The notes under the pieces were generated by a model. It ran no database searches. It saw only the letters and a list, made by a program, of their open reading frames with translations, and was not told the origin of the DNA. Made by a program: the position numbers and the translations under genes. From contig JAWWNJ010000095.1 in NCBI GenBank assembly GCA_037176885.1, forward strand, positions 186,001-250,000: 64,000 nucleotides of DNA, given 5' to 3'. The first letter of the stretch is position 1. Each line of letters starts with the position of its first letter. Below are positions 2,699-60,087 of this stretch, in pieces. The stretch is from Favolaschia claudopus. Taxonomy: Eukaryota > Basidiomycota > Agaricomycetes > Agaricales > Mycenaceae.

Positions 2699-2869
2699 TC
2701 ATGCGATAATGCACGACCCGCATGACCCCGTACCCCTGTCAAAATCGACGCCAGGCTCGATCTTGGGAAGCTCTTCGTCGCTTGCGACTGACACGGTCTG
2801 TTGGGCGGGAAAAGAGGAGATGTAGGCGACTGACCGCACGGTGGAGAGGATGGCGGAGAATGCGTCCAT
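2699..2869 (-). CDS. mating pheromone precursor 1 (CaaX, CIIA)
   Basis: A 56-residue precursor starts MDAFSAIL and ends GSCGSCIIA. The CIIA C-terminus is a farnesylation (CaaX) signal of the kind seen on basidiomycete a-factor-like pheromones. The family is trimmed at a charged pair upstream; here the candidate is the DR in DFDRGTGSCGSC. The start was chosen at MDAF because both paralogues (20502-20663 and 44973-45134) begin at the same residue and homology stops there. It differs from them by an SVRS-type insertion near residue 12. After the stop, GTGCGT...CACAG looks like a 3'-UTR intron, also present in the other two copies. Such pheromones are recognised by Ste3-type receptors; none was found here. 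Confidence 0.87.
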   Translation of the reverse strand: MDAFSAILSTVRSVAYISSFPAQQTVSVASDEELPKIEPGVDFDRGTGSCGSCIIA

Positions 2870-20395: not shown

Positions 20396-20501
20396 ATGCA
20401 CATTCGAAGCACAAGTCATCACCCATCTTCTCCCCCCTTCGAAGATTCCTTCGATACTACTTCACGCAGCCCCACATCTCCCTCTCCAATCACCTGCACT
20501 C

Positions 20502-20663
20502 ATGGACGCATTCTCTACCATTCTCTCTACCGTCGCCTACATCTCCTCTTTCCCCGTCCAACGGACCGCCTCGGTCGCAGGCGACGAGGAGCTTCCTAAA
20601 ATCGAGCCCGGTGTCGATTTCGACAAGGGCACGGGGTCTTGTGGGTCGTGCGTTATTGCATGA
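20502..20663 (+). CDS. mating pheromone precursor 2 (CaaX, CVIA)
   Basis: A 53-residue precursor begins MDAFSTILSTVAYISS and ends DFDKGTGSCGSCVIA. The C-terminal CVIA is a CaaX signal. It shares nearly every residue with precursor 3 (44973-45134). The usual charged processing pair is DK rather than DR. The start is the only in-frame ATG shared by all three copies. A conserved GTACGT...CGCACAG segment 18 bases after the stop looks like a 3'-UTR intron. Similarity to copy 3 continues to about 20975, so the duplication included at least 0.9 kb. Complete conserved promoter and intact frame make this, with gene 1, a likely active copy. Confidence 0.88.
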   Translation: MDAFSTILSTVAYISSFPVQRTASVAGDEELPKIEPGVDFDKGTGSCGSCVIA

Positions 20664-22585: not shown

Positions 22586-22604
22586 GCTTCTCTTGCGGAG
22601 AACC

Positions 22605-24199: not shown

Positions 24200-24552
24200 T
24201 CTGTTGTTTCGAATGAATTCAAGAAAGCGTAGTCATACAACAATGAAAATTCCAAAACCCCAAAGATCTCCGAGTTAGTCTGGCTTGCCGGACCCCATAA
24301 GGTTGTTCCGAACCTAAGAGCTGCAGCCGTCCCAACTACTCTTCAGAATGCGACGAGCGAGGAAACAAAAATCGACGGATGTGGGGTTACGACCATGACA
24401 GTGTAGACTGCTCAATAATCGGACTCTCGGAGGCCTGATTCAGCGAAACTATATAACGTGCTGTGCTTCAGCCTTAGAACCTTTCGGCGACATAGGGAAT
24501 GGAGAGTCCTGTCAATATGGATTCAGAATGATATCAACGAAAAAATGGCCAG

Positions 24553-39230: not shown

Positions 39231-39952
39231 TTTGAGCTGCTACAAAATCTTAAGTTTCGAGTCGACTGACTCCTGAGAGGAAGAACGCCCCTTATCTAGC
39301 AGCGGAGGCTGTCGGAATATTCATTGTTCCCCGTCGCCGCCGGTGGATGCTCTCATCGCCGTCGTGGAAGTGTCGGGGATCGGGATCGACGTCCGGAAGA
39401 GACGGCCCGGATTATGTAACCGTCGGCATTGATGCGAACACGCAGCTACACGCAGTCGTGTCAACGTGACACGCGTGACATCTTCTGCTTTCTACAGCCA
39501 TGCAAGGGGGAACAAAGATAAGAAAAAGACACATCACGTACAAAAGTTTTTTTTCGAGGGTCGGCCGACCCCTCCCCCCATCCCACCGTGGGAAACTAGC
39601 TTATATAAGTGTCAATCCCACCGATTTCCGGGATTTTTTGGCGGGAGGCTCTTCTGCTAGTTTATTTCTGCATTCCCCGGCCTTTTCATTGCGAAAGGTG
39701 GACGGGGGAGCGAGGAAGAAATTTGGCTAGTGACGACATCATCTGACATGTGTGAGAAATTACTTCGTTTGGAGTGGCAGTCCATGCCATAACACCTCTT
39801 ATCAACCCCGATATAGGAATAATCTTTTGGCCTCAAACTCAACGAGGGCTGAGCCTCGCACTTAGCGGACTTTGTATTCGTGTTCAGCACAAAAAATAGT
39901 ACCAAAAGAGACCCTGTTTCAGAAAACCGCGAATTTGGCCCCCCTTGCAGCC
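39231..39952. other. divergent promoter region
   Basis: Spacer between the deaminase-like gene (minus) and MYND gene 2 (plus). A possible TATA-like CTTATATAAG lies near 39600. Nothing else was recognised. Confidence 0.5.
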
Positions 39953-41596
39953 ATGAGAATCCTGCTCCCTCTCCCGCAAGACGCGCTGAATGATCCAGTG
40001 CGATGGAACGCAGAATGGGACCGCCTACTCAGCGGACCGTATGCTCTCCCTGACGGTCCTTCCCGCTGCTTCGAAGAGGCACTTCGAGATATGAGCGACG
40101 TAGAGATTCAGAATTCCCTCAAGAATTACCCTTTTCTGCTCAGCAATACTTGTGCGGTCCAGCGCAATCTAAGCTACGAGGCTCTCTCTCACTTCTCTCG
40201 TGATGACTTTGAGCGGAAATGGATGCGCGCGAGTTCCGACATCCGCGCACAGCATATTCTGGGTGCAATCGGCGCCGTTTGCTCCAAGGCGCGGAATTTG
40301 CACGACGCCCGCGCTTACTGCCCCGAAATCAGGCTTCTCCGCTTGAAACTGGACGGGAAGGTGTTCCTTAATCTTCTCAAGTCCGTGATGGTGGAGGACG
40401 CTTCGTTTATTCCGAGCGATTATAAATCCGTCCCGAACAAAAGCTGGGATACTTGGGCTGCAAAGCAGACGGAAGAGAACAATTCGGAGGAAGAGAAACT
40501 TGCTCTCGCAAAGATACTTCTTCTGCGTGCAAAGCTTATCTGTGAGAATCTCGTCCTCGTTCACGAATGTAAATTAACCCGAGCTCCAGCCCATGTTGTC
40601 CACTTCACCATGCGATCTTTCTTTGGCGAGGAACCTCCCGCTCTCACTGTACAAAGAGCAATTCATAAGCCGAAATTCTCCTCTGAGCCTACACCGGAGA
40701 TGGTAGCTATTCTCGGCTACGATGCAGCGAAGGCTCGCATGAAGCAAGAGATAGCCGGGATAAAGGACCGTCATCGCGAGCGCGTGGACATCTGCTCGTA
40801 CCTAGGCTGCACAAAAGTTGCTCCTAACCCATCCGTGCGATTTTCTCGATGCCCGACTTGTTTCGATGATATGGAGCGGCCAGTTCGTTATTGCTCCCAG
40901 TGCGTTTGGTCTCCCTCATGAAACATGTGTATAACGTTCTGACGATTCAATCAAGAGCTTGCCAGCGGGAGGACTGGGAGGCAGGACATCGGGAATTATG
41001 CGGAAGACCTCTCGACTTTGACACGGTCTCTCGACTCGTCGACCATCCCGTCCACAGCCACGCCTCGAGACCGCGCATCGGGCTCCCCATTAACGGTTTC
41101 AAACGCTCCATCGAACTCTCCAATCAAGTAACGAAACTCAATCTCCAGCCTATCGCGGACTATTACCTCATCAATAAAGACAAGGAAGATATCCAGTGGG
41201 ACTACGGGGCGGGGACGTATCGCCAGACGGCGTTTCGCGCAGTGCGCGAGGCGGCGATGACGACCGGGAGCGCGCAACATGTTGCGACTATGGCGCATTT
41301 CCTCTGTCTTTCGTTTGCGGGTCCGAATGCGCAGAATGAGACGGGGGTGAGTCCGAAGACGATTGTGGCGCAGCTGGGGAGGGAGTTTAGGATGAACAAT
41401 GTGAGGGAGCTGGTGCTTCAGGCGCAGAGCGACCAGCAGGCGGACCCTTTGCGAAGACCGTATGATCTATTGCTTGCTGAGGATGAGACACGCTGCTGAT
41501 ACGATTTCCAGACCACTCTTTGGGGACGCCCCGCTCGATGTGTGGGAGGCCGATAATCAGCAATATAATTGGTCTCAGATAGTTATAACCTTTTGA
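39953..41596 (+). CDS. MYND-type zinc finger protein 2
   Basis: A paralogue of the protein at 17867-19554 along its whole length. The start MRILLPLPQDALNDPVRWNAE aligns with that copy, so an ATG 27 codons upstream was not used. Exon 1 runs to about 40898 and ends in the finger CSYLGCTKVAPNPSVRFSRCPTC...YCS. An intron (GTGCGT...TCAAG) joins it to QACQREDWEAGHRELCG, completing the zinc ligands. Exon 2 carries IGLPINGFKRSIELSNQV and VSPKTIVAQLGREF. A second intron starts GTATGA near 41460. It leads to a final exon PLFGDAPLDVWEADNQQY, ending TF at 41596. Exon positions agree with the paralogue apart from its one extra intron. Function is unknown; the finger suggests protein binding. Confidence 0.87.
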
Positions 41597-41945
41597 TTAG
41601 TTTTCGACCTTGGATCGCGCTCAACAAGGCCGGAACTGTATTGTCGCACTGTAGTTGTACGATTATCTTCATCCCTCATCTGTTTGCTTTCTTGTAACGA
41701 CAATGGTACTTCGCGCCGCTCCCAATCTATGCCAATTATGTTCTCTGCCACAGGATGTGCTCGACAATTCAGAGAAATGTAATAACACCGCATGCCAACT
41801 AATTATAAGGGCGTTATCTTACCGGCAAATAAGCAATGATACATCGCCCTGCGCGTCGCTTCAAATTCAAAATTGACCCAATTCAGTTGGGAAGTGGCGA
41901 AAGAGGTGAGCCATAGCTGTAATATATAGAATGAAGTACACGAAC
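41597..41945. other. 3' flank of MYND gene 2
   Basis: No gene recognised. The last 30-40 bases resemble the flank beyond 44373 in inverted orientation, so the neighbouring element may extend outward by that much. Confidence 0.5.
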
Positions 41946-44373
41946 CTAGCCATATAAAATTACAAACTAAACTTACGACTCTAGCCAATCGTTCGGCTAT
42001 GTAGTGGCTGGGTAGGGTAGCCGATAGGCTTATTAAGCCTGTCTCCGGCGTCGTCCACCGGGCCCTCCGTAAGAATATTTGCTCACCACCGTCGGATAAC
42101 TTGACGGCGGGAATGGCTGTCGATCAATTGCGTCGCGATCGCACCGAGCGGGCGAACAGGAAGTAATCTCCGTGGTGTAACATATATGTGATGACTGTCG
42201 AGGCTGTGTGTCATTTTTTCCTCAAAAGGATCACGATTGATCGCTTGGACCGCTTCGGCGAAATTCAAAACGCTCCCTAGGCGGCTTGCGAGGACAGCTT
42301 TCTACACCATATGCCAATGGAACACGAGCCCGGTAAGCTTTAAGATAGTCACGGGCCGCTTGAATGCTCAAACGGGTTGACGGGGTGTTGATCTCCCGTT
42401 GACGGATGCTTGAAAACAATCACTGTGGCTCCGGATGCTTTCATCCCAGATAGGTTTTATGAATGCTTGTAAATACACAACAATTATGCAATAGCAGCCT
42501 CCACTGTGGCGAGGACATCAGTCTTCTACTTACTTGGTACATTCTTGTACATGGTCAGAAAGCATACTCCAGAGGCTCACCCCAGCCGGAATTGATCTCG
42601 ATAGGAAGCCCACAGCGGAACAAGTGTCAAATAATGCCGCATGATTCAGGAACGACAATCCTACGTCGAAATCACCAATCTCTCGCACTCACCATGTGGG
42701 TCTCTCGCACTCACCATGCTCTCACGGGTCAAATGTAAAACTGTTTTCCAGATGTTCCACTGCTTCGTTCGATGCAATATTATGTATATATCTAACTGTG
42801 GTGCTAATGTTGCCTAGAGTGGAATATGGAGTGGTTGGGAGCGGATTTGGAGGCAGTATTCACGTTCGAAAATTTGTCCATTTTCAATCATTATCCGAGT
42901 GTAAACCGCCGCCTGTAGCCCGAATAGTCAGGGAAACAATAAAAGTAATTGCTGAACTCAATAAAGGGAGGCTATACTCTCCTACTCCACTCAAGCTATT
43001 TACCTACCAGGTACATATCTACAACGGAAGGGAAAGTTACGATCCTATGAGGACCTTGTTCAACATCTCGAAACTTTGGGTCCCAAAATATTCTCAATCT
43101 CGATTAATTGTAATAAAATGCTCAATAAATCGTATATAATCTAGATCATCGCGTCCAAAATTTCCAGAGTGACCGTGTGTATAATGCGTGCATACGACCA
43201 CGAATCACTCATCTCTTCCTAAATCGGGTCGATTTCGGACGTTGCCGATGGGCGCCTGACCGGCGCTAAAGGTGTGACCTTTGTGACAACTCGCCTCTCT
43301 CAGTCGCCCCCACGGGTACCGGCATGGAATCTTCCACTGCACTCTCTAATGGTCTACTTGAACTTAATTCTCGCCACTTTGGATGTGCTACCCGGCTTTC
43401 TCTTCCTCAATCTCACTGTGAAGCACCAGACTCAGCATCGAGGTTGTCTGATTTTCTGGCCGCTAGATTCAGTTTGGAGAAACCTTCCGGGTGACTTGGC
43501 GTTCTAATGGGTCCTGGCTACTTGATCCCGGAGCTTTTTTGGCTCTATAATCCTCAGAATAGATCAGCATTTACGGTACAAGCCTGGAATGTGACACTCA
43601 ACTTGAATGTTCACTCCGATTCTGTTTACCGTTCAGCGAGTGTAGGAGCAATCAAACGAAGTAGGCAGACAATATATACACGCTTAACAGCTGAGTACTC
43701 GCCTTTCTGTTGTCAACAGCTCATTTCGGGGTTCAAATGCTTTGAAGAACTGAGCCATGCTGTGTCTCTGTGACTGCGGTGAGCAATGCTTTCTTCTCTT
43801 CACATTATAAAGCTTGACGAGTAGCCGTCAAGTTTGCGCAGCTTCTGTCATTCTCTAATGCGGAGCATTGCTGGGAAGTACCGATTTTCCTTTTTGGAAT
43901 ATTGATGCAGGATTGATAAACTTCAGTCGCCAACCTTATACCTTACTCTTCAGGAGCTTAGTATAATGTGCTTGGACAGTGAAGTTTAATTTTTGATTGA
44001 GTCTCGGAGCTCACTGTCGTAGACGACGCCGACCACGATTTGATCAATGTTGATGGCAGCGTGCGTCGAGTCGCGAATGTGCCGTTACCACATCACCGAT
44101 GACCTCTTGGCACCGTTTCGTATCGTGCCGTCAATTTCGACAAGATTTGCGGTTGTATCGGGTTGGTATCGGCTAAACGTGCTTGACGGCACAACTATGA
44201 AGGGTCTCCGGCTTTCTTGGCAGGCAACGACATGGGAACACTGTGTGGCCGACCGGTGGGCTTAATATGGGCGACGGGTCGTAGCCGACGGAGCGGACAA
44301 GAGACTAATTCATACGACTCTAGCCATAGGTTGGCTAGAGTCGTAAGTTTAGTTTGTAATTTTATATGGCTAG
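41946..44373. mobile_element. 2.4-kb DNA element with 43-bp perfect inverted repeats
   Basis: The arms at 41946-41988 and 44331-44373 are exact reverse complements over 43 bases, beginning CTAGCCATATAAAATTAC. Weaker inverted similarity extends about 30-40 bases outward and some tens of bases inward, so the true ends may lie outside these limits. At the right inner edge, 44313-44345 forms a second perfect hairpin (14-bp arms). No transposase was recognised inside; the longest frames are short and unsupported, so it is probably non-autonomous. No clear target duplication was seen. It lies 599 bases downstream of the pheromone 3 stop codon. Confidence 0.8.
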
Positions 44374-44972
44374 CTACGTGCACACAGTCTATTTCCTACA
44401 ACCAGGGGTGAAGAGGTTGAGCTATAAATGAACAAAGACAAATCAAGTATAGGCGGAGCGTGGTCTAGTAGTATCTGTACAAGCGCACCATCCGCGAGTT
44501 TTAGATGCGGAGTCGTCAGGGTGTGCTTGATCTGAGACAACAAGACAGAGCTCATTGAAGCGGGACTCAAAACCTGCGGGTGAAACTCGCGACAAATTCA
44601 CAGAGAAATCTCGATGTTCAATACAGCGGCTCCAGGCTATACAGTTACTATATGACAGTAGCTAAACTTAAGATAGGCAATGGATGGTCGATACAGATCG
44701 AGGATGAAGGAGTGACAACGGTCAACCGTAGGTGCATGATGAAAGTCCGGATGCAAAGGAAGATAGCGACGGACATGTCGTGAGAGGCGTATGGATACAG
44801 TCTGCGGGTATGCGGAATGAATGGTATATGGAATATGGGATGTGGGATGGGTCGTGAATCGTGACGATGTTGACGGGACCCTTGAAATCTGTGCGATCGC
44901 GAAGAAGTCAATATACAGCTTGATGGAGGGCAAAGCAAGGAAGGAACTGACGTACCGCAGTCATAAAGATGC

Positions 44973-45134
44973 TCATGCAACAACACACGACCCACACGAC
45001 CCCGTACCCCTGTCAAAATCGACACCGGGCTCGATTTTAGGAAGCTCCTCGCCGCCGGCAACCGAGGCGGTCTGTTGGACGGGGAAGGAGGAGATGTAGG
45101 CGACGGTAGAGAGAATGGTGGAGAATGCGTCCAT
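44973..45134 (-). CDS. mating pheromone precursor 3 (CaaX, CVVA), cut off from its promoter
   Basis: A 53-residue precursor begins MDAFSTILSTVAYISS and ends DFDRGTGSCGSCVVA, with CVVA as the CaaX signal. It is a close relative of precursor 2, including the flanks: the apparent 3'-UTR intron and the sequence to about 44640. The frame is undamaged, but 103 bases upstream of the ATG the homology to gene 2 breaks at the 6-base duplication 45238-45243, where an 11.8-kb transposon begins. The missing promoter is found beyond the transposon at 57087-57383. The gene has therefore probably lost normal expression unless the transposon end supplies a promoter. The intact frame suggests a recent event. 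Confidence 0.87.
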   Translation of the reverse strand: MDAFSTILSTVAYISSFPVQQTASVAGGEELPKIEPGVDFDRGTGSCGSCVVA

Positions 45135-45237
45135 GAGTGCGGGTGATTGGAGAGGAAGATGTGGGGCTGCGTGAAGTAGTATCGAAGGAATCTTCGAAGG
45201 GGGGGAGAAGATGGGTGACTTTAGGCTTCGAACGAGC

Positions 45238-45243
45238 GTTGTG
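45238..45243. repeat. target-site duplication GTTGTG, left copy
   Basis: It matches 57081-57086 exactly. Joining the flanks through one copy gives a sequence that aligns with the intact pheromone 2 upstream region, with only a one-base gap. Confidence 0.75.
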
Positions 45244-45284
45244 TTTGGTGGCCCATACCGGACAAAATACAGGAAATTATTTCC

Positions 45285-45500
45285 ATCCCCGGTAATCACT
45301 GCCCATCCCCATCAATCCCTAGCCATCCTCATCTGTCACCGGCCATCCTTGTCCATCCTTCCTTGTCCCAGCACATCCCTGTCTAGTCCTCACTCATCCT
45401 CGCTTGTCCCAGTCTGTCATTATGGTAGCCTAATGACATCCCGATCAATCCTCAGTTTCCTCGTCATCATCTGTCCTCAGGCATCCTAAGACATCCCAGC
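45285..45500. repeat. left subterminal short-word array
   Basis: Degenerate repeats of CATCC, GTCCC and CATCCTCATC words; the right end holds the inverted counterpart (GGATGAGGAT words at 56810-57030). Confidence 0.75.
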
Positions 45501-48500
45501 ACATCCCATATTTCGTTGCTTTTCGTTTGCGAAGCCCACTCTTAGGCATTCTAAGCCATCTTGGCCTTGCCATCGAATAAAACAAAAGTTTCTCCCAAGT
45601 TTCTCCTGACTTCGATCTCCGGCACCAATGTTGTGATGTACCGAGCTCGGCATTACATGCCGATGCCGATTTGATTCCATCGCAGATTTCATCACATTTT
45701 CTGGGACGCCTACGGCAGGGGTTTCAGACTTCGAAAAATGCCTGCTAGAGGCTTTTACAGCCGCTACAAATAGAGTATTGTATGTTCAAACCCCCAAGAG
45801 CTGCGAAGAGAGTTGGCCATCTGTCAAACCAACTTCAAGCCTATGCGGCAGTGTGCAGCTCTGAGACGCAACTCAGTACTAAGAAAGATTGACAGAAGTA
45901 GTACCGCGATTTGATTCCTTCAGAAGGCACGCACCTCTCTAGACTAGCGGCTTCACAGTTCGAAGAAACGGCAATGATGATTTTATTAAAGTTGTTGAAT
46001 CCACAATTCGAGAGCTGGGAGATCTTTCGCAGAGAGAGTGCCTTCAACTTGACCCGAACAGAACAAAATAGATTGGGCTGAACACTCGAGTCAGATTATT
46101 CGGATTCAAGGAGCCAAACACACCGTCTTGTCTCTAAACAAACTCGCTTTCTCGACACTTTGCGTGGCCTGCACTGTCTCCACTCCAAATTGGTTTTGAC
46201 ATTCGAGGTCGCGGTGCGGCGGATTCGTCCTGATGTCCAATCGGCGTCCCCGGTGCAAGTTCGGTAAAAGTTTTAATTCGGCTCTGAACGCATTCAAAGC
46301 CGATTCCATCTGTGCCAAAATCGCACGCCGACTGGTTACTCGGGAGAATATCAACTCGTCAGCCCTCCTTCCGTTCCGTAACTCAGTATCAATACAGTTA
46401 CATCGACTGTTACCGGATTGCGTCCGGAATTGGCCACTGCCTTCAATATACCCCAGACAGGAGTCGAATCAGTAAAATCAGCGCCTGTCCTTGTACAACT
46501 CCTGACCGTAAGCCGAAACAGATTTTGTGTCGCAGTCCTAAGTTTTGGACGGATGTAACCTGAAGTAGGCATGCATTCAGACCTACCTTGCTTAACCTTG
46601 GCCTCAATTATATACAAGGGGTGGTTAATTGTCCCTGAAATGAACATTGATCGGAAGCTCCTTTTTCCAGTAGGTGTGTATTGATATCCATGGCCTTTCC
46701 TCGATTTCAAATCTTATTTTCTTGCGGGGACAGCCTCGACGCGGAGAAGTTGAACCGTGGGAAAGTAGTTTGATCACATCAACGTGTACATCGTCGCCTT
46801 TCAAAATTCAACAAGAACCCTTGCTGCGCTAAAATAGCGGCAGACTTTTTCCCTTGGCGTGTGGTAGTCAATTTTTGACATTAAGCTACTAGTTAGAGTG
46901 GAACCCGGAGCTTTCATCGAAGAGACAGAAATTGCGGGGAAACTCCGAGTCTTGAAACAGGCAAGGCGATATCGAGTATGCAGTAAAGATTCGGAACTAT
47001 TATATGTATCCCAGAAGATGAAGGAGTAGAATTTCTTGGAGAATTAGCAGGAGTTGGAGAGAACTGTAAGTAGAGCCGAGTTGGGAATCGGTTTACTCTA
47101 CATGATGGTCCTCGATCGTACCTTGAAATCAGTTCGAAATCCAGGTAAGTAAGCGGCGGTGAGCTTTTGAGTTCAGACACCGGATGAGATTTGGCAGAAT
47201 GTTCTGAAGGGACAGCTACTCTCTCAGTATTTTCTGTATACTCGTTGCTACCGTTCACTGCTTTTGCGTTACCGGCACAATCGAGACGATTTGAACCGTG
47301 TAAAAGTTTGGTTGATCACATCCCTTGACCCAACCTCGACTTTCAAATATTCATTCCCGGCTTGCATACGTTTGTGGCTACCGCAATCAGAAGCCTCAGC
47401 CGATTACAGCCGCCGCACGCGGAGAAATTAATCCACATTCCACTTACAGTAATATGTTGCAGCAGAGATGTGGGTGAGGCGAGAAAGTTGATTGACTAAA
47501 TACTACCCGCAGTTTAGATACAGACATAGGATCCCGTTTTCCTCGATCATCGCACGCTGACGTGATGATTCTCACCGCGAGACGGCAATGGTGACTGGGC
47601 GGAGGAAGCGGCGGGTGATGGATGCTTGAATGTGCCCGTTTGTAGTGGGTAGAAGCGGGCGTCTGGTGAGTCGAGGATTGATTGATTTTGGTGATGGTGA
47701 GTTGCCGACATCGAATTAGATAGGTGTGGGGGTCCCGAGGCTGTCTCAGAGCTTGTATGGGCGGGTGAGAGGCACGGTGTAACGCTGACACTTGAATATA
47801 TCGACAGAAGTGCTAAATATAGCGCAGCAGAGAATCTACCACCAAAATATATATATAACACAATCAACCAACACACACAACACTACAACACAAATATCTC
47901 AACAAGATACACTCAAATGTCTCTCGAAGAGTTCGTGGGGTTCGATCCGAAATCCAGATGTCACAGTGACGAGGATATAAGTCGACTTGCAAGTAAGAAC
48001 CTTGCACAAAACACGCTCTCACACACCGTAGATGGAAGTGATTCCGTCCGCGGACCTTTCCTTAAAATAGGAACTATAAAACGGTAGGATACAAGATACC
48101 AACAAAGTTGAATATCAGGGCGAGATTGAAACAATGACCACAGACAGTTTCCGCGGCAGACTGTACAATTCTTATAGCGCCAGTTACGCTACAGACCTGA
48201 ACCTCCAAGTTCCAGGAACCTTTGACACTCCTTTATATAGCACAAGTCTTTAGGCGAGGACTAGTCAGATCTCTTCAGGTTATACGCCAGCAGTTCCAAC
48301 GCAATGCTTTAGCAGATGGACAGTTCCACTCTTCTTCAGACTCAGGGAGATACTAGTTCACTCTTGAGCACACGTATCTTCACAATGAGATAGACAGTCC
48401 GCGGGCAGTAGAGGCAGGCAGTTCCTCACACACTAAGGCCACGACAAAGCTACTCGAAAGCAAAGCCTCCGCGGGTGAACACTCTCGAAACAATGCTTAA

Positions 48501-50990
48501 GATTCACACTTGACTTGAACTCCAACACAATTTCTATTAAGACAAACGAGTAGACAATATCTTTATATATGCCTCTACGTTGCTGCCTGAGTTCACCAAC
48601 GCTGTCCAATAGACTGAGCGCGATGTCCTCCTGCTCAACGAGAAATACAGGTCCTTTTATACTAATGCCAAGAAATACATCACATAAATAGTACAGAGTA
48701 AGCAATGTCGATCCAATTGAGTAGAGAGATGGTATATTGGTATTTGGGTGTCCCGGAGGACCTTCGGCAGCCTCTTGGCTTGTCGATCCAACGGTAGAAA
48801 GTCAGCAGTTATGACTCCCACGGTTGAATCACTGTATTGTGGAAGCCCGCGGAACACCATCATTGGTGATCCCGTCAATCCGTCACTTGCGGCAACCCTT
48901 CCGATGGTGCCATCAACGCCTCTACTAACTCCTAAGACTATTCTTGGGACATTCCAATTCACTCGCGATTTCACGGACCCGTCTGTTGTCCAATTTATCA
49001 AGCCACCAAGTCATCCGCGCTGACTCCAATATAGAAATAGATTTCTAATGAAGTTGCCGCACCTGTTCGGCTTCCGCATCACACATCATCACTCCTGTCA
49101 AAGACCTCATGTCTTGCCATAACTCTGCCTTCTGATCCTGGCACCGGCATCTCCTGTATGAGATCCCTTTCCGCTGTTCCAGCCGTCTATTTATAGTCGG
49201 CAGCCCGCGGCATCTGTCCCTTGACTGATTAGCCGCCGCGGCGCCTTCTATATCCTGGTAGACCTTCGTCTAAGTCCATAGTACACAAAGTACTTGACTC
49301 TTCGTCACTCTATCTGAGGGTTCTGTTATGGAACAGATCCATAGTACTGCAGTAGGCTTTATTAATATAATACCTTTCTCCTGTAGTGGGTTTTACGGTC
49401 AACAGCTCGGAGCTCACTTTGACCCTCCTTAGTGTCACCAACAGAGGTACTGACTTCCTATTGATAGTCGAGTAAGACTATAGTCGTGGCGGGTAGTTGG
49501 GTTGTTTAGGGCCGCACTTGACTTAAAATAGCCAGATATAACGCGCAAAAATGGCCAGTCGTTACAACGGTATCTTTGCTATTCCTCCTTGTTATAAGTG
49601 CTAACTGGTTCGGTCTGGATAACTCTAGATGGAAAACAGTGGCGTTGGGGGACGAGGGCGGAAATGGAACTAACCTTGTTTTTCCAGCCAATGCTACCCC
49701 ATCCCGCGCTTTGTTCTCGCCGCTGCGTGCTCGCTGGGCCTGACCAAAGACCCATGAACACGTGTTGGTTCAGCTCGGTTTACCTGCGGCGGTTCTTGAT
49801 TGATACTCCTTTTGTCCGACGTTCTTCATATTTTGATATTCTAATGGTCGGGATTCAATGGCGCGGATGCTACAGCGTCGAGTTTCCGAGGGAGTGGGCG
49901 GGATAATTGGCGCTTGTTGTGAACATATAGCCTGGAAAATCAAGTGATTTCTTGTATATCCTGGATCAGAAGAAATACTTATTTGTGGCATCGCATAAGG
50001 TGCGCAATCTCACTGTCACCGCTCGCTCTCCTGCATCGCGATGTCCACCTACATAGAGCTACCTTTCAGCCCCCGGTAGCATCGGATAACACGCCAGATT
50101 CTTATTGTTTGACTCGGTTTCATCAAGAAATCAACTCGTAGATTTCTCCGCGACCCCAAACGGAAGAAGATGACATATCTCACCTTTCGACGAAGACCAC
50201 CGCGGGCGCCTCGTGTCGATGGATACGGTAGGGCCTTAAAAAGGGGTAAATCCCCTGGATAGCGGTGAGCTGGGACAGGCGAGTCGAAACAAGTGTAGTT
50301 ACGCTGTGTCAGGGGAACCCCCGCTTCACTCCCTCCGGCTCCGGCCCCGGACTCCGTTTCTCCGGCCCCCGGCTCCGTTCTTCTGGCTTCCGGACCCCCG
50401 GCCTCCGCTCCTCCGCCCCGGACCTCCGACTGGGACCGCGCCTGCGATCAAGCTCGTGATTACTGTCGGGCCAACCGTTCCCGAGGCATGTGATAGTTGT
50501 AGGGACTATATAGCTAGACTCCTGACGTGGGAGAATCCATTCCTGTCTTCTCTTTGGATTCTCCCTCGTCAGGTTAGTGCCTGTACTATTGTAGCGTACT
50601 TCTATTTATCTTTGGATTCTCCCTCGTCAGGACTCTTGAGTTATCTCGGGCCTCGGGGTTGCCCTTACACGCTGCACATGATCAAACAACATGAAAGGAA
50701 CAGAATAGAGAACTTACTTCAAGTCGAATAGCTAAGATCTTGAAGGTCGGGGACGCTATGGCGACACTGTTAGCCGGTCCTGTGAATACTCGTCAATCCA
50801 ACACCAAGCAGACTTTCCGTAAGTAATCTTCTCTTCGATGGACGAGATGAACACACACAGATAGCAATACTATGCTCAACATAAATCATAGCAAACTAGG
50901 TGTGTGAGATAGTAGGCCTACTGTTGTTATATCAGGTTTCTTGACACAATTGACACAAACCTACCTTTTCAACCATAGTCAAGGCAGGCC
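45501..50990. other. internal region of the outer transposon, no gene recognised
   Basis: About 5.5 kb without a convincing gene. Two related segments of about 60 bases (46752-46815 and 47288-47352) share GTTGAACCGTG-like and TTGATCACATC words. CCGCGG-type words recur between 48047 and 48845. A C/T/G-rich stretch, with repeated CTCCGG, lies at 50325-50440. Minus-strand frames at 48433-48705 and 48657-49001 could be retrotransposon debris but show no diagnostic motif. Confidence 0.5.
50521..50631. repeat. foldback and direct repeat of an 18-mer
   Basis: CCTGACGTGGGAGAATCC (50521-50538) pairs with GGATTCTCCCTCGTCAGG (50556-50573) with one mismatch across a 17-base loop. The latter 18-mer recurs exactly at 50614-50631. 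Confidence 0.88.
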
Positions 50991-50998
50991 CGAAAGCG
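50991..50998. repeat. target-site duplication CGAAAGCG, left copy
   Basis: Identical to 56679-56686. An 8-bp duplication is the size reported for Zisupton/KDZ transposons. Confidence 0.88.
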
Positions 50999-51397
50999 GA
51001 GTAATATGCCCGCCGGTGGAAAGTTCATTGGCGGCCACCATTGGCCGCTGTTGTATCTTGGTGGACGTTGTCGGACGTCAAGAGATGTTGTTGGACAACG
51101 GCTCCCACAGTACGGCAAGATAAGATACTGATATCCGTTGACATCCGGCAATCTCCACTGGCGATCATCGGCCCATAATTCTCTTGTCATCCACCAACAT
51201 CCACCATTATCCACTGGCTTTCATTGAACTTTACTGGCGGCCAAGCTACACGTTTTCTATAATTCCATCCAGGCTAGTCATCTGAGGTACTGCCCATATG
51301 GCCAACGGGCTTCAATGGCCGTCGCTGGCGCCCATAAAATCCCAGCCATCTTCGAGCGAAAACTCAGTTACTTCACCACTTTCCCCCCACTTCTGCT

Positions 51398-53403
51398 ATG
51401 TCTCAAGACGTCCCCGCAATCACCAGCGCACCTTTTCATAAGAAGCTTAAGGCTGAGCTTCAGATCATTGCATCTGAGATGGGCTTGAATTCTAATGCTA
51501 CCGTCCCGAACCTTCGCAAAGCAATTCAAGAGCACCTGCGCACGCATGCGGAATTGGCCGACAACCCGAAGTATCTCACTCTCTTCGCACAGCGCACTGG
51601 CGCGGCTCCTCCTGCTCGAACCTCTGCGGACAAAGCCAATGAAGAGGCATTGCAGGAGCCTATTGTTCCCGAGACGGTCACCGGGTGCGCAAATTTATTC
51701 CTTATATCTCTCTTTCATGAACGGGGGCTGATGGCACGAATGAAGCGCTAATCGCACTCTGATCGAGCGCAAGATCAAGACCGATCCGCCAGCCCAATTT
51801 TCGAGACTCTCTCTCGAGGACGGCGCGGCTCATCAGCGCAAATCGGTAGATGAAACGCTCGAGCAGGGTGCGTGAGGGGTCTCCTCCATTTTCCTATTTA
51901 ACTGTCTGTCAGATTCCGAGTCGGGATCGGATTCCGAGTCTGTTGCGAGTCGTCCCGCAACTCCCGTTCGCCAGGAACAAGACAAGAAGGCTCCGGCGCA
52001 TGAGCAGAAGAAAGCAGTTCATGCTGCTCTTCCTGGTGCGAGGTGTCTCCTCTCATTTAACTTGATGATCGCTGAATATATTCAAGAGGTCATTCGAGTC
52101 AATTTTTTTGACATGAATCGACCTCAGGCACGGCCGCATGAGGTCCCCGTTCTTAGTCGCGACGTGAACATCGCGACACTTGCAGCCCAAACGGGCGGCG
52201 TTGAGTACGTCGCCTCCCTCAAGGAACTCCTTCCCGTGGCGTTTGCAAATGATTCCCCCGTGAAAGGTATGTAAGCTTTTTGACTGTTATCTGTCATATA
52301 CTGACCGTGCTGTTATACAGAGCGCGCGGGGAGAATCTATCGTCCCAATGTTCGCCGCGACGCCTCCCCACACAATGTTGGGAAGGTGGAAGCTATTCTC
52401 GACGGGGTCTCTCGCCCACTCAACATTCCCGAGCTTAATGCTTATACCCTTCGCGACGAGGGCGGGAGTCTTTTCTGTGACCTTTATATGTCCACCTCTG
52501 ACGGTGTAGAACATTCTGATGAGACTGCGCCGGTCGGCGGTAATGAGACTTCCGCGGTATGAATATCATTGACTACACCATTCATCTCGTTTACGCTTGC
52601 TCAGGATCAACGTCTCACATTCACTGGGGCAGGCAGCGATATTCCTCTTGCAATCGCGAGGGATCGCGCCGTCCACAATCCCAGTGTCGGTGACACTTTA
52701 GACGCTTTCGTCGTGTTCCTCCATGCGTTCCTGAAGGAATCTATTCCCGAACTCCCCGACGCGGGTCATGTGTGGCCTCGTGCAAAGTATATTAGCACGA
52801 TGCTTCTGCGCCACTTACTTGAGGTAAAGGTTATGACGGTTTTGACTGCTTGGAGTCGTCCAACTGGCGGTTACCTTGTTCCGCACGGTAAGTTCTTTTT
52901 CTTGTGATTCACTACGTCGACTTATATTCCTATACATAGGTCATGGTGAATTCTCCGGGATGAGATTCACCAAGGACGAAGTTCTGCTTACCATCAACAT
53001 CAAGAGCTCGAGCTCGAGCAACGATAACCTTCTTTTTGCTCCAGACAACCTCGCGCCGTGGCCGAGAGCGAAGGAATGGTACGAGAGCGGCGGTAAAACT
53101 CACAAGGATTCGTTTGACAGAATGACGACGTCCAAGTTCAAGAAGGGCCTCAAGCAGCGCCTCGATGGTTCGGATCATCCTCAGTCCAGCGCCAGCAGGA
53201 ACCGTCGCCGCAGCCCTTCGCCGTCTGCCGCCGAGGGCTCCTCGCGTAAACATAGGCGCTCAGTCAGTGTTTCTAGTGACGATTCGGTGGACTTGAAGCG
53301 TCGCTCCAAGAAGAAGGGGGCTTCGAAGAAGCGGCGGGGGCGCTCCATCACTTCGGAGAATTTGGACGACAATGTCCCTTTGCACTTGGGGTATAGCTAT
53401 TAG
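51398..53403 (+). CDS. KDZ-element accessory protein with SAP-like N-terminus
   Basis: The product begins MSQDVPAITSAPFHKKLKAEL. Residues about 13-45 (LQIIASEMGLNSNATVPNLRKAIQEHL) resemble a SAP motif, a small DNA-binding helix-turn-helix. Five or six introns are inferred, most of them GT-AG and in frame; exon 2 (near 51750-51860) is uncertain. Middle exons include VEYVASLKELLPVAF, RAGRIYRPNVRRDASPH and HVWPRAKYISTMLLRHLL. The C-terminus is strongly basic with Ser/Arg and Lys runs (RNRRRSPSPS, RSKKKGASKKRRGR), like a nuclear-localisation or nucleic-acid-binding tail. It lies between the left transposon end and the transposase, on the same strand, so it probably belongs to the element. No enzymatic motif was seen and its role is unknown. 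Confidence 0.75.
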
Positions 53404-53557
53404 TTTACATGTTGTTTGCATTCATAAATTCGAGTACTTGCCATTTGCGCGCACATAATGTTTACGCGGCTCAGTCTAAGAATCAAAAACGGTACACACA
53501 GCACTGCAAACAAAGACACAGCCCTTAGGCATCTTGTTCTTAACCTTCACCACGAAG

Positions 53558-55763
53558 ATGCCGCCAACTGTGAGCGATCTGGTTCTTGTCCTCCAATTGT
53601 TTCTTCCTGCCGGACTCTCCATCGAGAAAGCCTTCTACCTAATCGGTGTCATCATATCGATTTATCCTTTGCTTCGTCTCCACATCAATCAAAGGCGACA
53701 GCCTCACCAGCCGGCACGTACTGCGTGGACGAAAACAATTCTGACGCTTCTCAAGGCCGCGTTCAAATCTGACAGTGACGAGGATGACTTGGTGTGGGCT
53801 ACAGGAATGGATTTCACGCCAGACGACTTCGCACAACGTATCTGCGACGACCTCGAGCCTCTGTATAACATGCTCGGTCTCAACCCGCAGAACCTGGCTG
53901 CACAATCTCCTGGCCTGCTATTTCCAACTCCACGACGTATCCTCTGTACCTCCAGACTTTCCTGCGCATTCTGCCCAGTTGCAGACTTGAATATCATCCC
54001 GACGCTTCGCCGACGTGTTGATAATCAGACAGTTTGGATTCTCGACGAATCCTTTTGCTGGGTCCAAGCAGATCTTGTAATCGCCCACTGCGCGACATGT
54101 CGCGCGGATTATTTCCCCGATCGCATTACCTACAAGGATGCGAACGGGCGGCGCCGCCAGAAATTGGAGTTATCTACCGATTTTCTGCGCATCTCGAAAC
54201 ACGGGATCTGGGCCCACAAAAAAAATCGCCCTTTTCCAAGAACACGCTGTTCATCGATTGCATGCCGGGTGGTCAAATTTGGCAGAATTGATCAACGACT
54301 TCACGGGAACGCAGAGAAAGCTCACCTATCGGCAATCGCAACGGCTCTTTGTTGAACATTTTTCCCGCCGTCTCCTTCATTTCCACAAACGGGACAACTT
54401 CTCCTGCGATGCACACCCCAGTACAAAATTGCTGGCAGAGGCAGTTCGGAGAGAGATCGGGGTCAATGGCGGTTTTTTAGAATCCGCGATGGCACATGGC
54501 TGCACGAATTGTACACATCTCAAACGCTATCGATCCGATCTTGCTGCTGAAGGAGCGAATTTCGGAGATGCACAGGGCGTGGCAGGAGTGGAAGCGGATG
54601 GTGGATCTGTACGCCCTTTGATTTCATTTTAGCCCGTACAAACTAACTTCCCCGATGAAAGAACGCCAACGCACCTGATGTAGGTGAAAATCCTTTCGAT
54701 CCGCCTGCACAACAAGATGCGCCGCCGGCCGGGCAGCCGCGAGGATATGTTCGGTTAGCGGTCATGGACGGAAAAAACATACCGCATCAGGTGCGTTAAG
54801 ATCGAGGCTACTGCACGGTCGCTGATTTTGTTTTGTTGTGCTAAATAGAAATGTGCACTTGACCAATGCGAGAGACCTCTCGTCAATTACAAAAATGGTC
54901 GTTTTTGTGAAGCGCATCTCAATTTGCAAGATGTTTGCGGTATCGTTCCTTGCGGGCTCCCCGTTCAGAGTCCTGGTGCTCTCACTTGTGCGACGGAATC
55001 TCACATTCAATGGCACCGGGATTACAGCTCCCGTTTTGCTCGCCTGTCATTTCCAGGAGTGCGTCGGGTCATTCGCCGACAACAGGAGCATAGCGCGAGC
55101 AACGGACAACACGGACCCACACTTGAAGTCGCCCTTCCCCCCCTCGGCGACACTCCGGGAAATCAGGTGGTACACACCTTCAAAGCAAAGTCAACATATT
55201 GCTTGCAGACAGTTCAGTGGGCTTGCGGTTATCCAGTGGGATGGGGCAAATGTTACCGCTCGGAGAGCTCACCTCAGGTCTTGGGCATTCTCAACCGCAT
55301 CTGGGCAAATTTCCCGAACTTCAAACCAAGCTTCGTTGCATACGACGACGCCTGCAATCTGCTGCGCCACATTATCACTCAGAATCCCAACGATCCGTGG
55401 ATTGTCACGACCAAGTTCATCGTAGACGCCTGGCATTACATCAACCATCGCGCTACCGACGTTCTTTGCCGTTTGTGGTGCAATCCCGCACCCAAGAACG
55501 GCTCTCAACCAGATCTCGTGCTAGTTGAAGAGGATTCTAATGGGATTCAGCATGAAACCCGGGCGTTTAATACGGAGACAGCGGAGCAGCTGAACTCGTG
55601 GCTCAGTGGCTTTGAGTCGCAACTTCGACACATGTCCGACGTCAACTATGACTTCTATGTTCACGTTCTACTGATGATTTACGCAGAGCGGGTCGATAAA
55701 CATGTCGCAGCCAAGAATTTGCAGTTGAGCGAGGAATTCTGGGCGGAGGCTACTGGGGAATAG
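53558..55763 (+). pseudogene. KDZ transposase with CxC5/CxC6-like cysteine cluster, frameshifted
   Basis: The frame opens at the ATG 53558 (MPPTVSDLVLVLQLF). It contains paired-Cys segments (CAFCP; HCATCRADYFPDRITY) like the CxC5 cluster associated with KDZ transposases. The frame breaks in a run of eight A at 54218-54225. It resumes one base on as IALFQEHAVHRLHAGW...LINDFTGTQRKLTYRQ. An intron near 54790-54845 is followed by a CxC6-like cluster (CALDQCERPL, FCEAHLNLQDVCG) and the catalytic half. Key catalytic-half segments are TFKAKSTYCLQTVQWACGYPVGW and FVAYDDACNLLRHI, with an Asp-Asp in the position typical of KDZ. It ends FWAEATGE. The break is a +1 shift (or one A too many), and a homopolymer error in the assembly is as likely as real loss of function. 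Confidence 0.85.
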
Positions 55764-56384
55764 TAGATATTTCACAACTAGTTAGATCTCGATTGTAAGC
55801 ATCGACAGATTGTTTGGATGATTAGGACTGAATATTAGGAGTATATTTAGGCGGACAGTCATTTTCCTTTTTTGCATTCTGGACATACAGAGAACATATG
55901 ATGAGTCTAAGAAGCCGTATATATCTGGCATTCTCTCATGATGGACGCGACACAGAAACAAAACATGTGACCGTATCGACCTTTTCGTCCCTCTAAAACT
56001 CTGGTGATGAACCGAGACAAAAACTTTTGAATGTCTAGTCTAAGCGTACCTCGATGGTATTTCCAACTTCTGGCTTCCCTGATCGAGCAGTTCACAATAT
56101 ACAGCGAAAAATAAACATCTCTTTCCTAATTGGGGAACTGGTTGAAACACCGGGTGTTTATCGAGATTCTGATGATAATTCTCCTCAAGAGCTCGAGGAT
56201 AGTAATATTGTGCTTATAACAGTCTACATTGCAAGTGTACGCTTCCCTGAAGTCGTACTTTGCATGTTACTGAGCAAATGATCCGCATTGATATTACTTG
56301 ATCATGAACTTAATATTATTAGTATACAAGCAAACACTTTGCTAGATCCCATTGGCAGCCATACAGTTTTCCTTTTTTCAAAGC
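55764..56384. other. 3' region of the KDZ element
   Basis: A/T-rich stretch between the transposase stop and the right subterminal array. No gene recognised. Confidence 0.55.
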
Positions 56385-56640
56385 CATTGAAGTTCATTGT
56401 ACTCCAGTGATATCCACTGGAATGCACTGGGTCTTGGCTGTACGGGAAGCCAATGAATTCCATTGCATTGCACCGGAGTACAGTAAAAGACGGCGAGTTT
56501 CAATGGCTCAGCGGCAACTTACGAGCCAGTGAACTCCACTGGAGAACGTCGACTTCCACTGGCTGCATTCAGTCCATTGTAGTCCATTGAACTCCATTGA
56601 TTCGGCAAATGCGGTCCAGTGGTAAACAGTGCCGAACGGT
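56385..56640. repeat. right subterminal array of the KDZ element
   Basis: Degenerate copies of CCACTGGA, CCATTGAA and TCCATTG words; similar words occur at the left end (51020-51340). Confidence 0.75.
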
Positions 56641-56678
56641 GCCGAACAATGCCGTTTCCACTGCCGCGTATATTACTG

Positions 56679-56686
56679 CGAAAGCG
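56679..56686. repeat. target-site duplication CGAAAGCG, right copy
   Basis: Identical to 50991-50998. Confidence 0.88.
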
Positions 56687-56809
56687 CGGCATGGAATGCC
56701 GAGGATCGCCGGGAGGTGATTGAGGTCCACTTCCGGCGATCAGCGCTCGAAACAACGGCATACTTATGCCGCTTATGGGCATGCCGCGTATCAATGACAG
56801 CTCATGAGG

Positions 56810-57030
56810 ATGATCTGGGATGTGTTAGGACAGGTTCTGTCCTCAAACTCTCCCCTTTTAGCTTGTTTTGGGTTTCACCGAGTCGTCATTAGGACAGGTC
56901 CCAAGGTAGTCCCAAGTCATCCTAGGGATGAGCAGAGATTGGTGAGGATATTGTCAGGTTCGATGAGGATCGGGTGGGATTAGCGAGGATTGACGAGGAT
57001 GAACTGGGATGATCGATGACGAGCTAGGAT
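56810..57030. repeat. right subterminal array of the outer transposon
   Basis: GATGAGGAT, GGGATGA and GATTGACGAGGAT words, the inverted counterpart of the array at 45285-45500. Confidence 0.75.
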
Positions 57031-57080
57031 GGGCAGTCACAACCAAAACCATTTATTTTTGTCCGATGGCGGCCTTCATA

Positions 57081-57086
57081 GTTGTG
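57081..57086. repeat. target-site duplication GTTGTG, right copy
   Basis: Exact match to 45238-45243; beyond it the pheromone promoter resumes. Confidence 0.75.
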
Positions 57087-57383
57087 AGAGTCCTACTTAT
57101 ACATTCTTCGGCGTTGCCCACATGTAGCAGCACAATGAAAGCTGAGGAAGCAGCACGCTATCATGACTCGAAGTTCATTGTCTTCGTGTGCGGAAATCGC
57201 TGCGGTAGGTGAGATTGGAGGTAAGTAAACGGAGAACACGGCGGGTAGTTTTCCGTAACGAAGACAAAAAAACCAGCGTGATGGTCATAGCCGAGAGCGG
57301 CGTGTTTTTTCCAAGACAATAAAGGTATCAGGCGTCGTGAGATGGTGGTGGTTGCAGAAGACAATTAGGAAGTGACGCGTCAC
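57087..57383 (-). promoter_or_regulatory. orphaned pheromone 3 promoter
   Basis: Homologous to the upstream regions of pheromone genes 1 and 2, reading leftward. A TATA-like TATAAGTAG (coding strand) lies near 57094-57102. AAGACAAT-type motifs are at 57177-57184, 57313-57320 and 57358-57365, and GTGACGCGTCAC is at 57372-57383. Its own gene is now 12 kb away (44973-45134). It points into the right end of the transposon, opposite to the transposase strand. Confidence 0.75.
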
Positions 57384-59099
57384 ACCGTGACCAACAACGA
57401 TCTCATCATTGATGCGACTCCAAATTGGGTTCCGCTTGGACCGTCAGTAGACCATCGTGGCGTATGGCGGCATCAGCATCTCCCGCGCACAAAAAAAGAT
57501 CACGAGCGGAAGAACTCTCCCCCGCTAATCTATTTGCTGCCGCATGCCGTGCAACGGCACTGTTGGAGTTTGAAAGTCGCCTGGCTTATCGGTACACCGC
57601 GTGAAGTATATCTATATATCTGTGTATCGCAAGTGAGTGACCAAAAAGAGTCCTTTATGTTTTGTCTGAAGAAAAATGAACCAAAAACGAACCCACAATC
57701 ACCACGACACAACTGGTGGCTTGCTTCGGTTCATCAAGAGCTGATGATCCAGAATTGATTGGTTGACAAGAACATGCAACAGCTGCTACAATATATAGCG
57801 GGTTCCTTGGGAGTAAGCATCGACAGCGGAGTTCACAATTTGAATGAAATCGGGAGTCCAGTGATTTTATCTGAGAAATTCGCGGACCCGATCAGGTCTC
57901 TGCCTTCGAGTATGTATCTCAGACGGAATCTCCTCTTGGTTTCTTTCTGTCACATCTTTCCCAGACCTTGAGTATGATTTTCTGTTGAACTCCGCGGCTT
58001 GAACTCAGCTCGAAAATTCCAGCTGTCGAGCGCGAGTTCAGAATCTCTGCAATCGCGTCGTGATCGGACCATCGACAGCCACTGAGCTCTCCAGATCCCT
58101 TCGAAAGAATAGAACGCCACCAGCCGTTCTTCCACCTGACAAGGACAGCATCGGCTTAACGCCCGCCAGGCGTATATAGCACATGGTGCATCAAAATGCC
58201 GCTTTATCGTCTTATCTTCGACACCTCTCTCTGAGGCCGCATCGGCAGTTTCGGTCAATCTCAGGACTTGGTCCAACCACTCTTCCCTCATCAACAACCA
58301 CTTCATCCATTTACCCATGACCAGCCATTCATTCGCTCCCGGGCCGATGCTGATCGGTGAGATTCAGTTCCTCGCCCTGGCAGTGAACAATAATTGTCTA
58401 CTCATCCTGAATTCAACTAGGTCTCTTTCTGAGTCTTATGATCTACGGAGTAAGCTCATTTACAGCTCATCAACATTCTTTCTTTGAATCTCTTCCACGT
58501 AGAGCGTAGTTACACAGGTACATTTTGTGCCGCCTGGCCGATATCTGTTTTAGAAGTCTCGTATGCTGATTCCCCACTCAGATGGTCCGATATTTTGTCA
58601 CCTATAAAAGGTGCGTCTCGTCTCGTAAAATTACCATCAGCGCGAATGCTTACACAAATGAGCAGAGATTCGACCTTTCTCAAATGTCTTGTGCGTGAAC
58701 TTTCTTTCCAATCACACTGATACAGCTGAGCTAGTGTCTATGGCCCCAGATGACATACCTCCTGATTGCTCAAACCGCGACTATTGTTATGCAGTGTGGA
58801 ATAATATATCAGCCGTTGATTGTTGACTCTAGTTGGGTTGTTAATATTTCTGCAGGAATTCACTGACAGTCTGGCTTCGTTATCAATATAGAAACAGAGG
58901 CCGACAACGGAGTTACCCCGAAGCGTGAGTTTTCTGAAGCCATACTTTCTCCAGTCGTAGATTCTGACTGGAATTTAGTGATACCGTCAGGCGAGTCTAG
59001 TTCAGGTTTCTCATGGAAAGCAGACATTCATTTGCGTGTCTTCAGAAGCGATACTGATCGTAGGAGCACAAATTTGGTTCGATAACAGTATCTTACCTC
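57384..59099. other. intergenic region, no gene recognised
   Basis: The stretch between the orphaned promoter and DUF6534 copy B. Several short stretches look like exon ends with GT/AG neighbours (for example near 57910 and 58520) but no family emerged. The missing 5' half of DUF6534 copy B was not found here. Confidence 0.45.
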
Positions 59100-60087
59100 T
59101 TTGGATAGACTTTGGTAGCTACTCCGATTCAGCTCTTCTCCGGCTGGAGAATTAGCGGTATATTTTACTATTTTATCTTTTACCTGCAGAGTCAATCTGA
59201 GACAGTCATACTTAGTTATCACTGGATCATCCGTCTTGCCTGGAATAATCACATTACTCTCGCTCAGCTCTTTCGGTGCGTTGTACCAAGCCGCATCAAA
59301 TTTATAGTGAATACGGTCATGGAATTGAATTTCTAGGGAGCGGGATAAACATGGCTGTTCTTGTCTTTCGACATCGCCGGTACAGTGAGTTCCCCGCTCT
59401 TACTGCACCGGCCGTTGTTTGGCTCTCCTTGAGTGCGGCTTGCGATGTGGTTATAGCGCTTGGATTGAGTCACGCTTTGGTATGCTCTTTCTCCCTGTTT
59501 AAATCCTGCTTCCCGACGCTTAATTTTCACGCCGCTTTTAGTACACGCGTAAACAGGGTCTTCTTGGTGGAATAGATACTCACCTTAACCGAATCATTCG
59601 CCGTGAGGCTCACATTCGAATCAAATCCCCCCAATGGCTGACCATGGACCAGTGACCCTTGAAACTGGCTCTTTGACGGCCTTTACAGCCTTGCTGGATG
59701 TGATCCTTTGCACTGCGATTCCGGTCCGTGCCGTTATCCCTGTAAAAACGACGCAATATATATGGGATCAATTTCTAGCTTACCAGCACGAATTTCATCG
59801 CGGATCTTCCCCTCTCGGGAGTCTATACTTGGTCCATGCTTGCAATGTATGGTCCACCTTTGACAACGGACCAATTTAACCATTCTCTCTGTCTAATTTA
59901 CAGGCTCAACTCTCGTCCACGAACGATCGACGAACTAGATCCTCCAACACAATTGAGATTTTCACAGGCTCCGAGTATCTTTAGGATCGAGCAGCCCTCT
60001 TTTGCTGCAACTTCGCGAAGTTCCGAGGCAGACTCTGTAAACCATCCGTTGTCGTTTCTTTTCAACAGTCTGAATTCAGATCTCTAG
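59100..60087 (+). pseudogene. DUF6534 membrane protein B, 5' part missing
   Basis: A paralogue of the gene at 24553-26248, recognisable only from its middle onward. The visible exons read TLVATPIQLFSGWRI, ITGSSVLPGIITLLSLSSFGA, APAVVWLSLSAACDVVIALGLSHAL, ETGSLTAFTALLDVILCTAIP, TSTNFIADLPLSGVYTWSMLAM and LNSRPRTIDELDPPTQLRFSQAPSIF, ending NSLNSDL. Introns fall at the same places as in copy A. The helices coded by the first exons of copy A (GPFLIG, LMIYG, AETAVIVV) were not seen upstream. It is therefore either truncated or has a very diverged N-terminus. It is transcribed away from the orphaned pheromone promoter. Confidence 0.72.

Follow-up and report, generated by a model that had tools for sequence, protein, structure and literature searches.

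A pheromone precursor gene of Favolaschia claudopus parted from its TATA box and upstream boxes by nested transposable elements

Results

The stretch of DNA analysed here (the window; C95:186001-250000, 64 kb) belongs to the genome assembly of the mushroom Favolaschia claudopus (264.6 Mb, 460 contigs) and carries three genes of the fungal pheromone precursor type, the third of which is separated by 11.8 kb of transposable elements from the promoter boxes that accompany its relatives. The published genome, that of CIRM-BRFM 2984, was derived from fruit-body tissue using PacBio reads and the Falcon assembler and is given as 264.58 Mb in 461 contigs, and the main text of that report mentions neither ploidy nor mating genes (PMC10905254). 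Within the window, gene 1 (2699..2869, minus strand) encodes a 56-amino acid (aa) form, gene 2 is located at 20502..20663 on the plus strand, and gene 3 (44973..45134, minus strand) retains an intact frame of 53 aa with an MDAF start and the CaaX end CVVA. An initial pattern search of the genome proved too loose (266 and 226 matches against 306 and 327 in controls), and the flanks of gene 3 were searched against the whole assembly, the matching loci being fetched and compared. The pheromone locus was found on three contigs, C95, C83 and C167, which together hold seven precursor genes with products of 53-56 aa. All seven products begin with MDAF and end in a CaaX motif (CVVA, CVIA or CIIA), and the six others are 87-94% identical to that of gene 3.

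Comparison of genes 2 and 3 locates the insertion. Their similarity covers 44595-45243 (85.6% identity), is broken 103 bases before the gene 3 ATG at the hexamer GTTGTG (45238..45243), and is picked up at a second GTTGTG (57081..57086), 11.8 kb away, where it continues over 57082-57396 (87.7% identity). The insert of 11,837 bp (45244..57080) is bounded by these two hexamers, which form a perfect 6-bp duplication, while 103 bp of native upstream sequence (45135..45237, minus strand) remain between the ATG and the first of them. On the far side of the insert lie an orphaned TATA-like box, TATAAGTA (57094..57101, minus strand; at -124 when the insert is disregarded), and the orphaned upstream boxes (57177..57383, minus strand), namely AAGACAAT at 57177, 57313 and 57358 and the palindrome GTGACGCGTCAC at 57372-57383. 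Because the insertion duplicated positions -104 to -109 upstream of the ATG, it has parted the TATA box, which lies a few bases 5' of the insertion point, and the likely start region of gene 3. In fungi, transcription starts some 25-35 bp or more downstream of a TATA box. An earlier sequence-only reading of the window had described this arrangement (the intact frame, the break and resumption at paired hexamers, the displaced boxes at the positions given here, and an insertion point between TATA box and ATG), and the present comparison bears it out. That reading had also stated that gene 3 joined to the far flank aligns with gene 2 with one gap; the two are indeed collinear once one hexamer is collapsed, but the alignment contains several small gaps.

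The uninterrupted form of the locus occurs twice in the same assembly, which places the insertion beyond chance. Searches with each flank identified C83:898762-900097 and C167:127570-128894 as sites at which both flanks abut, and both alleles are collinear with the window for several kb on either side of the insertion point, except for a stretch of some 3.3 kb beyond gene 3 that they lack. The C83 allele is 88.9% identical to C95 on the gene side and 89.2% in the upstream flank, and the C167 allele 86.4% and 88.6%, respectively, over compared lengths of 0.63-0.65 kb (gene side) and 3.4-3.5 kb (upstream flank). At the insertion point, the hexamer occurs once in each allele, as CACAAC in C167 and as CACAAT in C83; a six-way alignment at the site reads CTCACAACGCTCGTTCGAAG in the joined C95 sequence, CTCACAACGCTCGTCCGAAG in C167 and CTCACAATGCTCGTCCGAAG in C83. 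Since these alleles are uninterrupted and carry a single hexamer, the empty state is considered ancestral, and the 6-bp duplication is attributed to the insertion.

The insert had been read as one 11.8-kb transposon, which it is not: it consists of three nested elements, each with its own duplication. The outer element, E1, runs from TTTGGTGGCCCATACCGGACAAAAT to ATTTTTGTCCGATGGCGGCCTTCATA with imperfect terminal inverted repeats (local score 37; no score above 27 among 500 shuffles) and measures 4,356 bp after subtraction of the two nested elements and their duplications. Thirteen other E1 places were examined, of which 12 were readable at both ends, the thirteenth (C138) showing the right end alone; all 12 are bordered by exact 6-bp duplications that differ in sequence from copy to copy, and the coordinates of both ends give spans of 3.3-7.3 kb. 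These sizes (n=12), and the fact that the three copies readable at both nesting points skip the two inner blocks, led to the rejection of a single 11.8-kb transposon, while a long terminal repeat (LTR) element as the outer unit was rejected since 45200-57100 contains no direct repeat reaching 40 bp and the E1 ends are inverted. The claim that transposition cut gene 3 off from its TATA box and upstream boxes is upheld by the duplication, the two uninterrupted alleles and the uniform 6-bp duplications at the sister copies.

No transposase was detected in ten frames scanned at E<=0.1 (six in the shell, two across the LTR border and two in the LTR), the scan yielding two sub-threshold matches alone (DUF7183, 0.069; UL95, 0.063), and E1 is filed as non-autonomous for that reason. 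Longer relatives of 13.5 kb (C59) and 17.3 kb (C196) are present if the paired end matches belong together, and the 7-kb middle of the C59 relative likewise gave no transposase match. With its terminal inverted repeat, fixed 6-bp duplication and lack of a detected coding family, E1 resembles the non-autonomous, large MITE-like (miniature inverted-repeat transposable element) DNA transposons. The duplication length is shared with hAT elements having 6-bp duplications, which are mentioned in PMC12730594, and E1 is possibly hAT6-like.

The first nested element (47778..49566, 1,789 bp, TGTAAC...GTTACA) is a solo LTR, as indicated by its TG...CA ends, the 4-bp duplication ACGG on its left (47774..47777) and right (49567..49570), and relatives arranged in direct pairs. 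When 40 of 453 candidate places were scored, the 39 other than the window's own copy proved 95-98% identical to it, and eight same-strand pairs stood 14.9-16.3 kb apart, a pairing that points to a giant LTR retrotransposon, some 18 kb in length, as the probable parent. The second, element B (50999..56678, plus strand, 5,680 bp), is a DNA transposon whose inverted ends begin AGTAATAT and which is flanked by an 8-bp duplication, CGAAAGCG, at 50991..50998 and 56679..56686. Ten plus-strand frames of element B, scanned at E<=1, matched the cysteine clusters CxC6 (1.3e-14) and CxC5 (7.3e-06; 26.6 bits, cut-off 26.9), besides two weak unrelated families. Pfam names both clusters for transposases of the Kyakuja-Dileera-Zisupton (KDZ) group, and an 8-bp duplication is reported for Zisupton and one Dileera family in PMC12730594; element B differs from that group, however, in that the scanned frames yielded no KDZ transposase domain, and its membership is thus not proved. 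Relatives of element B sit near the same spot in the E1 copies on C1 (L038) and C138 (L041), hinting at a preferred target.

Whether the 11.8 kb could have moved as one composite, with E1 already carrying the LTR and element B, was considered because one 6-bp duplication bounds the whole nest and the C1 and C138 copies hold their B-like ends at a comparable place. However, those ends are just 72-78% alike, and the E1 copies on C26, C50 and C124, the only ones readable at both points, lack both nested elements. Furthermore, a copy of element B at C23:1986991-1992578 is 100% identical (rounded) over 5.4 kb and has no E1 match listed beside it, which argues for a recent, separate landing of element B. 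Joint transport is accordingly regarded as an unlikely origin of the nest.

The boxes from which gene 3 has been parted are shared by its relatives. In all six other precursor genes, TATAAGTA is found at -122 to -125 and a AAGACAAT box at -205 to -209, while the palindrome and two further AAGACAAT boxes, located around -338 to -343 and around -382 to -396, occur in some of the genes only. Gene 2 has the TATA box, three AAGACAAT boxes and the palindrome in place. In gene 1, the TATA box and two AAGACAAT boxes are in place but the middle box and the palindrome are missing, and in the C83 allele of gene 3 it is the distal box and the palindrome that are missing. As exact strings, TATAAGTA, AAGACAAT and GTGACGCGTCAC are all absent from the 620 bp that at present precede the gene 3 ATG.

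The predicted products were compared to judge what loss of gene 3 would remove. The 22 residues that lead to the CaaX cysteine, EELPKIEPGVDFDRGTGSCGSC, do not differ between genes 1 and 3 of C95; gene 2 differs from these two genes by K for R within this stretch and by D for G just before it, and gene 2 of C167 additionally has S for F in the C-terminal stretch. Apart from the K/R and the single F/S difference, near-identical precursors are thus encoded on all three contigs. The R (codon 42 of gene 3) immediately precedes GTGSCGSC, where processing may occur, and forms a charged pair that reads DR in genes 1 and 3 of C95 and DK in the other five genes, with eight residues from there to the CaaX cysteine; an EE pair precedes that cysteine by 20 residues. 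By analogy with the scheme in PMC8305134, the DR/DK pair might be a cleavage site, in which case all seven genes would yield GTGSCGSC, although DK is not among the charged dipeptides of that scheme (ER, DR, EH, NH, EE and DE), for which eight residues are also short. The R common to genes 1 and 3 could reflect gene conversion or shared descent, and these two genes would stand apart if K and R were processed differently. Among six genes compared, gene 3 has five private changes: two are replacements (D28G and K42R) and three are silent. Of the seven precursors, a protein search recovered only one as an annotated protein, namely the C83 allele of gene 3 (C83:899614-899769; R3P38DRAFT_3217100), which at 88 aa has extra residues ahead of MDAF.

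No STE3 receptor gene, which in a PR (B) locus adjoins the pheromone genes, was found: 120 STE3 proteins (of 610) gave no tblastn match (E<=0.01, no positive control) in the window or in 66 fetched loci. Pfam scans of 30 window frames likewise gave no STE3, and no frame of the window was recognised as a receptor from its hydrophobicity. The set of 120 includes two F. claudopus STE3 proteins, whose contig of 2,085,158 bases matches C26 in length, and the genome may contain further receptors.

An inverted segmental duplication (17643-26403 and 39872-60021) contains genes 2 and 3, each flanked by a gene with a weak MYND finger and one for a DUF6534-like membrane protein. Beside gene 3, the former is present as pieces at 39872..41499 on the plus strand (E 0.016, below the cut-off), with its paralogue beside gene 2 at about 17643-19590, while the divergent neighbour past the orphaned promoter (58357..60021, plus strand) is a paralogue of the DUF6534-like gene that adjoins gene 2 (24556-26403, minus strand); the Pfam match on the gene 2 side, the only side scanned, was just under the cut-off (E 8e-06; 27.3 bits, cut-off 28.2). 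A second insertion, an approximately 2.5-kb terminal-inverted-repeat element (41908..44410), lies about 560 bp past the gene 3 stop codon and is absent at the C83 and C167 alleles, where some 3.3 kb beyond gene 3 (about 41281-44604) is missing. Of the three contigs of this locus, only C95 yielded gene 1; the left neighbourhood of that gene (3506-9500) is present on C83 and C167 too, but with a different order and orientation relative to gene 2, which suggests an inversion. At the left edge of the window lies a Copia-type gag-pol fragment (413-2182; Retrotran_gag_2, 4.7e-25).

The number of haplotypes was gauged with probes from C1, L006-L008, chosen from five loci (L004-L008) picked up by chance, L004 and L005 being left out. 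At 93-96% identity, L006 was found at full length at three places, L008 at three among 41 matches, and L007 at two. With the pheromone locus, these probes make up the four loci on the basis of which the assembly appears to hold three haplotypes of, arithmetically, some 88 Mb each. That the three pheromone loci are paralogues on one haplotype is less likely, since the C1 probes also occur at full length on other contigs and 86.8% of BUSCO genes are duplicated (PMC10905254).

Discussion

The account that best fits these results, to which we assign a probability of about 0.8, is that E1 split gene 3 from its promoter, that the nest followed, and that gene 3 most likely lost regulated transcription with a small effect on pheromone output. 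In the C95 haplotype, E1 landed 104-109 bp upstream of the gene 3 ATG, just 3' of the TATA box, duplicating GTTGTG. A retrotransposon that left the solo LTR, and the KDZ-associated element B, landed inside E1; their arrival at this site is placed after that of E1 because neither is present in the three sister copies readable at both points. Gene duplicates under one promoter type tend to be co-regulated. Since the TATA and upstream boxes now stand some 12 kb from the ATG, normal, regulated transcription of gene 3 has most likely been lost, and the gene is probably silent.

Several points weigh against this account. The silencing is deduced from the sequence, and the insert junctions are those of an assembly with a published overall read depth of 20.47x (PMC10905254). 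The frame of gene 3 is undecayed, the private changes amounting to those listed above, so that the event may be recent or gene 3 may still be expressed. In addition, the end of E1 could offer a replacement transcription start. It is possible, in this regard, that the insertion rewired gene 3, with E1 or a promoter within the nest driving it, perhaps constitutively; the intact frame would suit such an arrangement, as would an A/T-rich stretch, CCTGTATTTTG, read by eye at the E1 end that faces the gene. However, neither TATAAGTA nor AAGACAAT lies within 620 bp of the ATG, and the changes in gene 3 are so few that a short period of neutral drift explains the intact frame equally well, for which reason rewiring is considered improbable.

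Silencing of gene 3 would probably affect pheromone output little: its C-terminal stretch is encoded identically by gene 1 and almost so by gene 2, both of which still have promoter boxes upstream, and the alleles of the two other haplotypes are uninterrupted. The sequence-only reading had expected a changed pheromone set in this nucleus and possibly a changed mating specificity. In favour of this are the precursor-type genes of the cluster and the fact that only the C95 genes 1 and 3 carry R; against it are the duplication of the gene 3 C-terminal stretch by gene 1, the near-identity of that stretch in all three haplotypes, and the lack of a STE3 match in the window, the two F. claudopus STE3 proteins in the query set lying on a contig that matches C26 in length. 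The split thus probably did not alter mating specificity, and an altered repertoire of the C95 nucleus with that consequence is judged very unlikely. An assembly artefact, be it a chimeric contig or a haplotype switch at the junctions, is scarcely credible: the assembly does appear to contain several similar haplotypes (PMC10905254), but an exact 6-bp duplication and element ends common to 12 other insertions are not expected of a chimera.

The closest parallel is provided by the pheromone-like peptide precursor (phl) genes of Agaricus bisporus, for which PMC8305134 describes precursors of 44-54 aa, peptides of 11-13 aa and expression of at least three of four genes. As there, the F. claudopus precursors are short (53-56 aa), start with MD.F, end in a CaaX motif and occur in several copies; they too appear to lie apart from STE3 receptors, none having been found in the window, and have alleles with alike predicted mature peptides. 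Three of the four A. bisporus genes flank an island rich in transposable elements (PMC8305134). In contrast to the A. bisporus genes, two copies here lie in an inverted segmental duplication together with neighbour genes, one copy has lost its promoter to a transposable element, and the predicted peptide would comprise eight aa after DR/DK rather than 11-13. A literature search, conducted mostly at abstract level, returned no report of this locus and no mushroom pheromone gene parted from its promoter by a transposable element.

As an insertion allele, the split gene 3 is well documented, has built-in empty-site controls, and is ordinary, as such alleles are in a genome rich in transposable elements. 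A broader conjecture, which we put forward tentatively and think more apt to be wrong than right, is that strain CIRM-BRFM 2984 carries three haplotypes whose near-identical clusters have no receptor close by, and that mating-type selection has ceased to act on pheromone identity in this invasive species. Transposable elements would then be free to dismantle pheromone genes haplotype by haplotype, the C95 gene 3 being the first to lose its promoter, through an undescribed family of DNA transposons with 6-bp duplications. At the level of the gene, the C95 allele represents a clean, natural separation of a pheromone gene from its promoter, with two uninterrupted alleles from the same strain as internal controls, and it could reveal which upstream sequences such a gene requires in a mushroom. 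Beyond this, it points to a published genome seemingly made up of three haplotypes, and to a group of pheromone genes possibly without a role in mating type.

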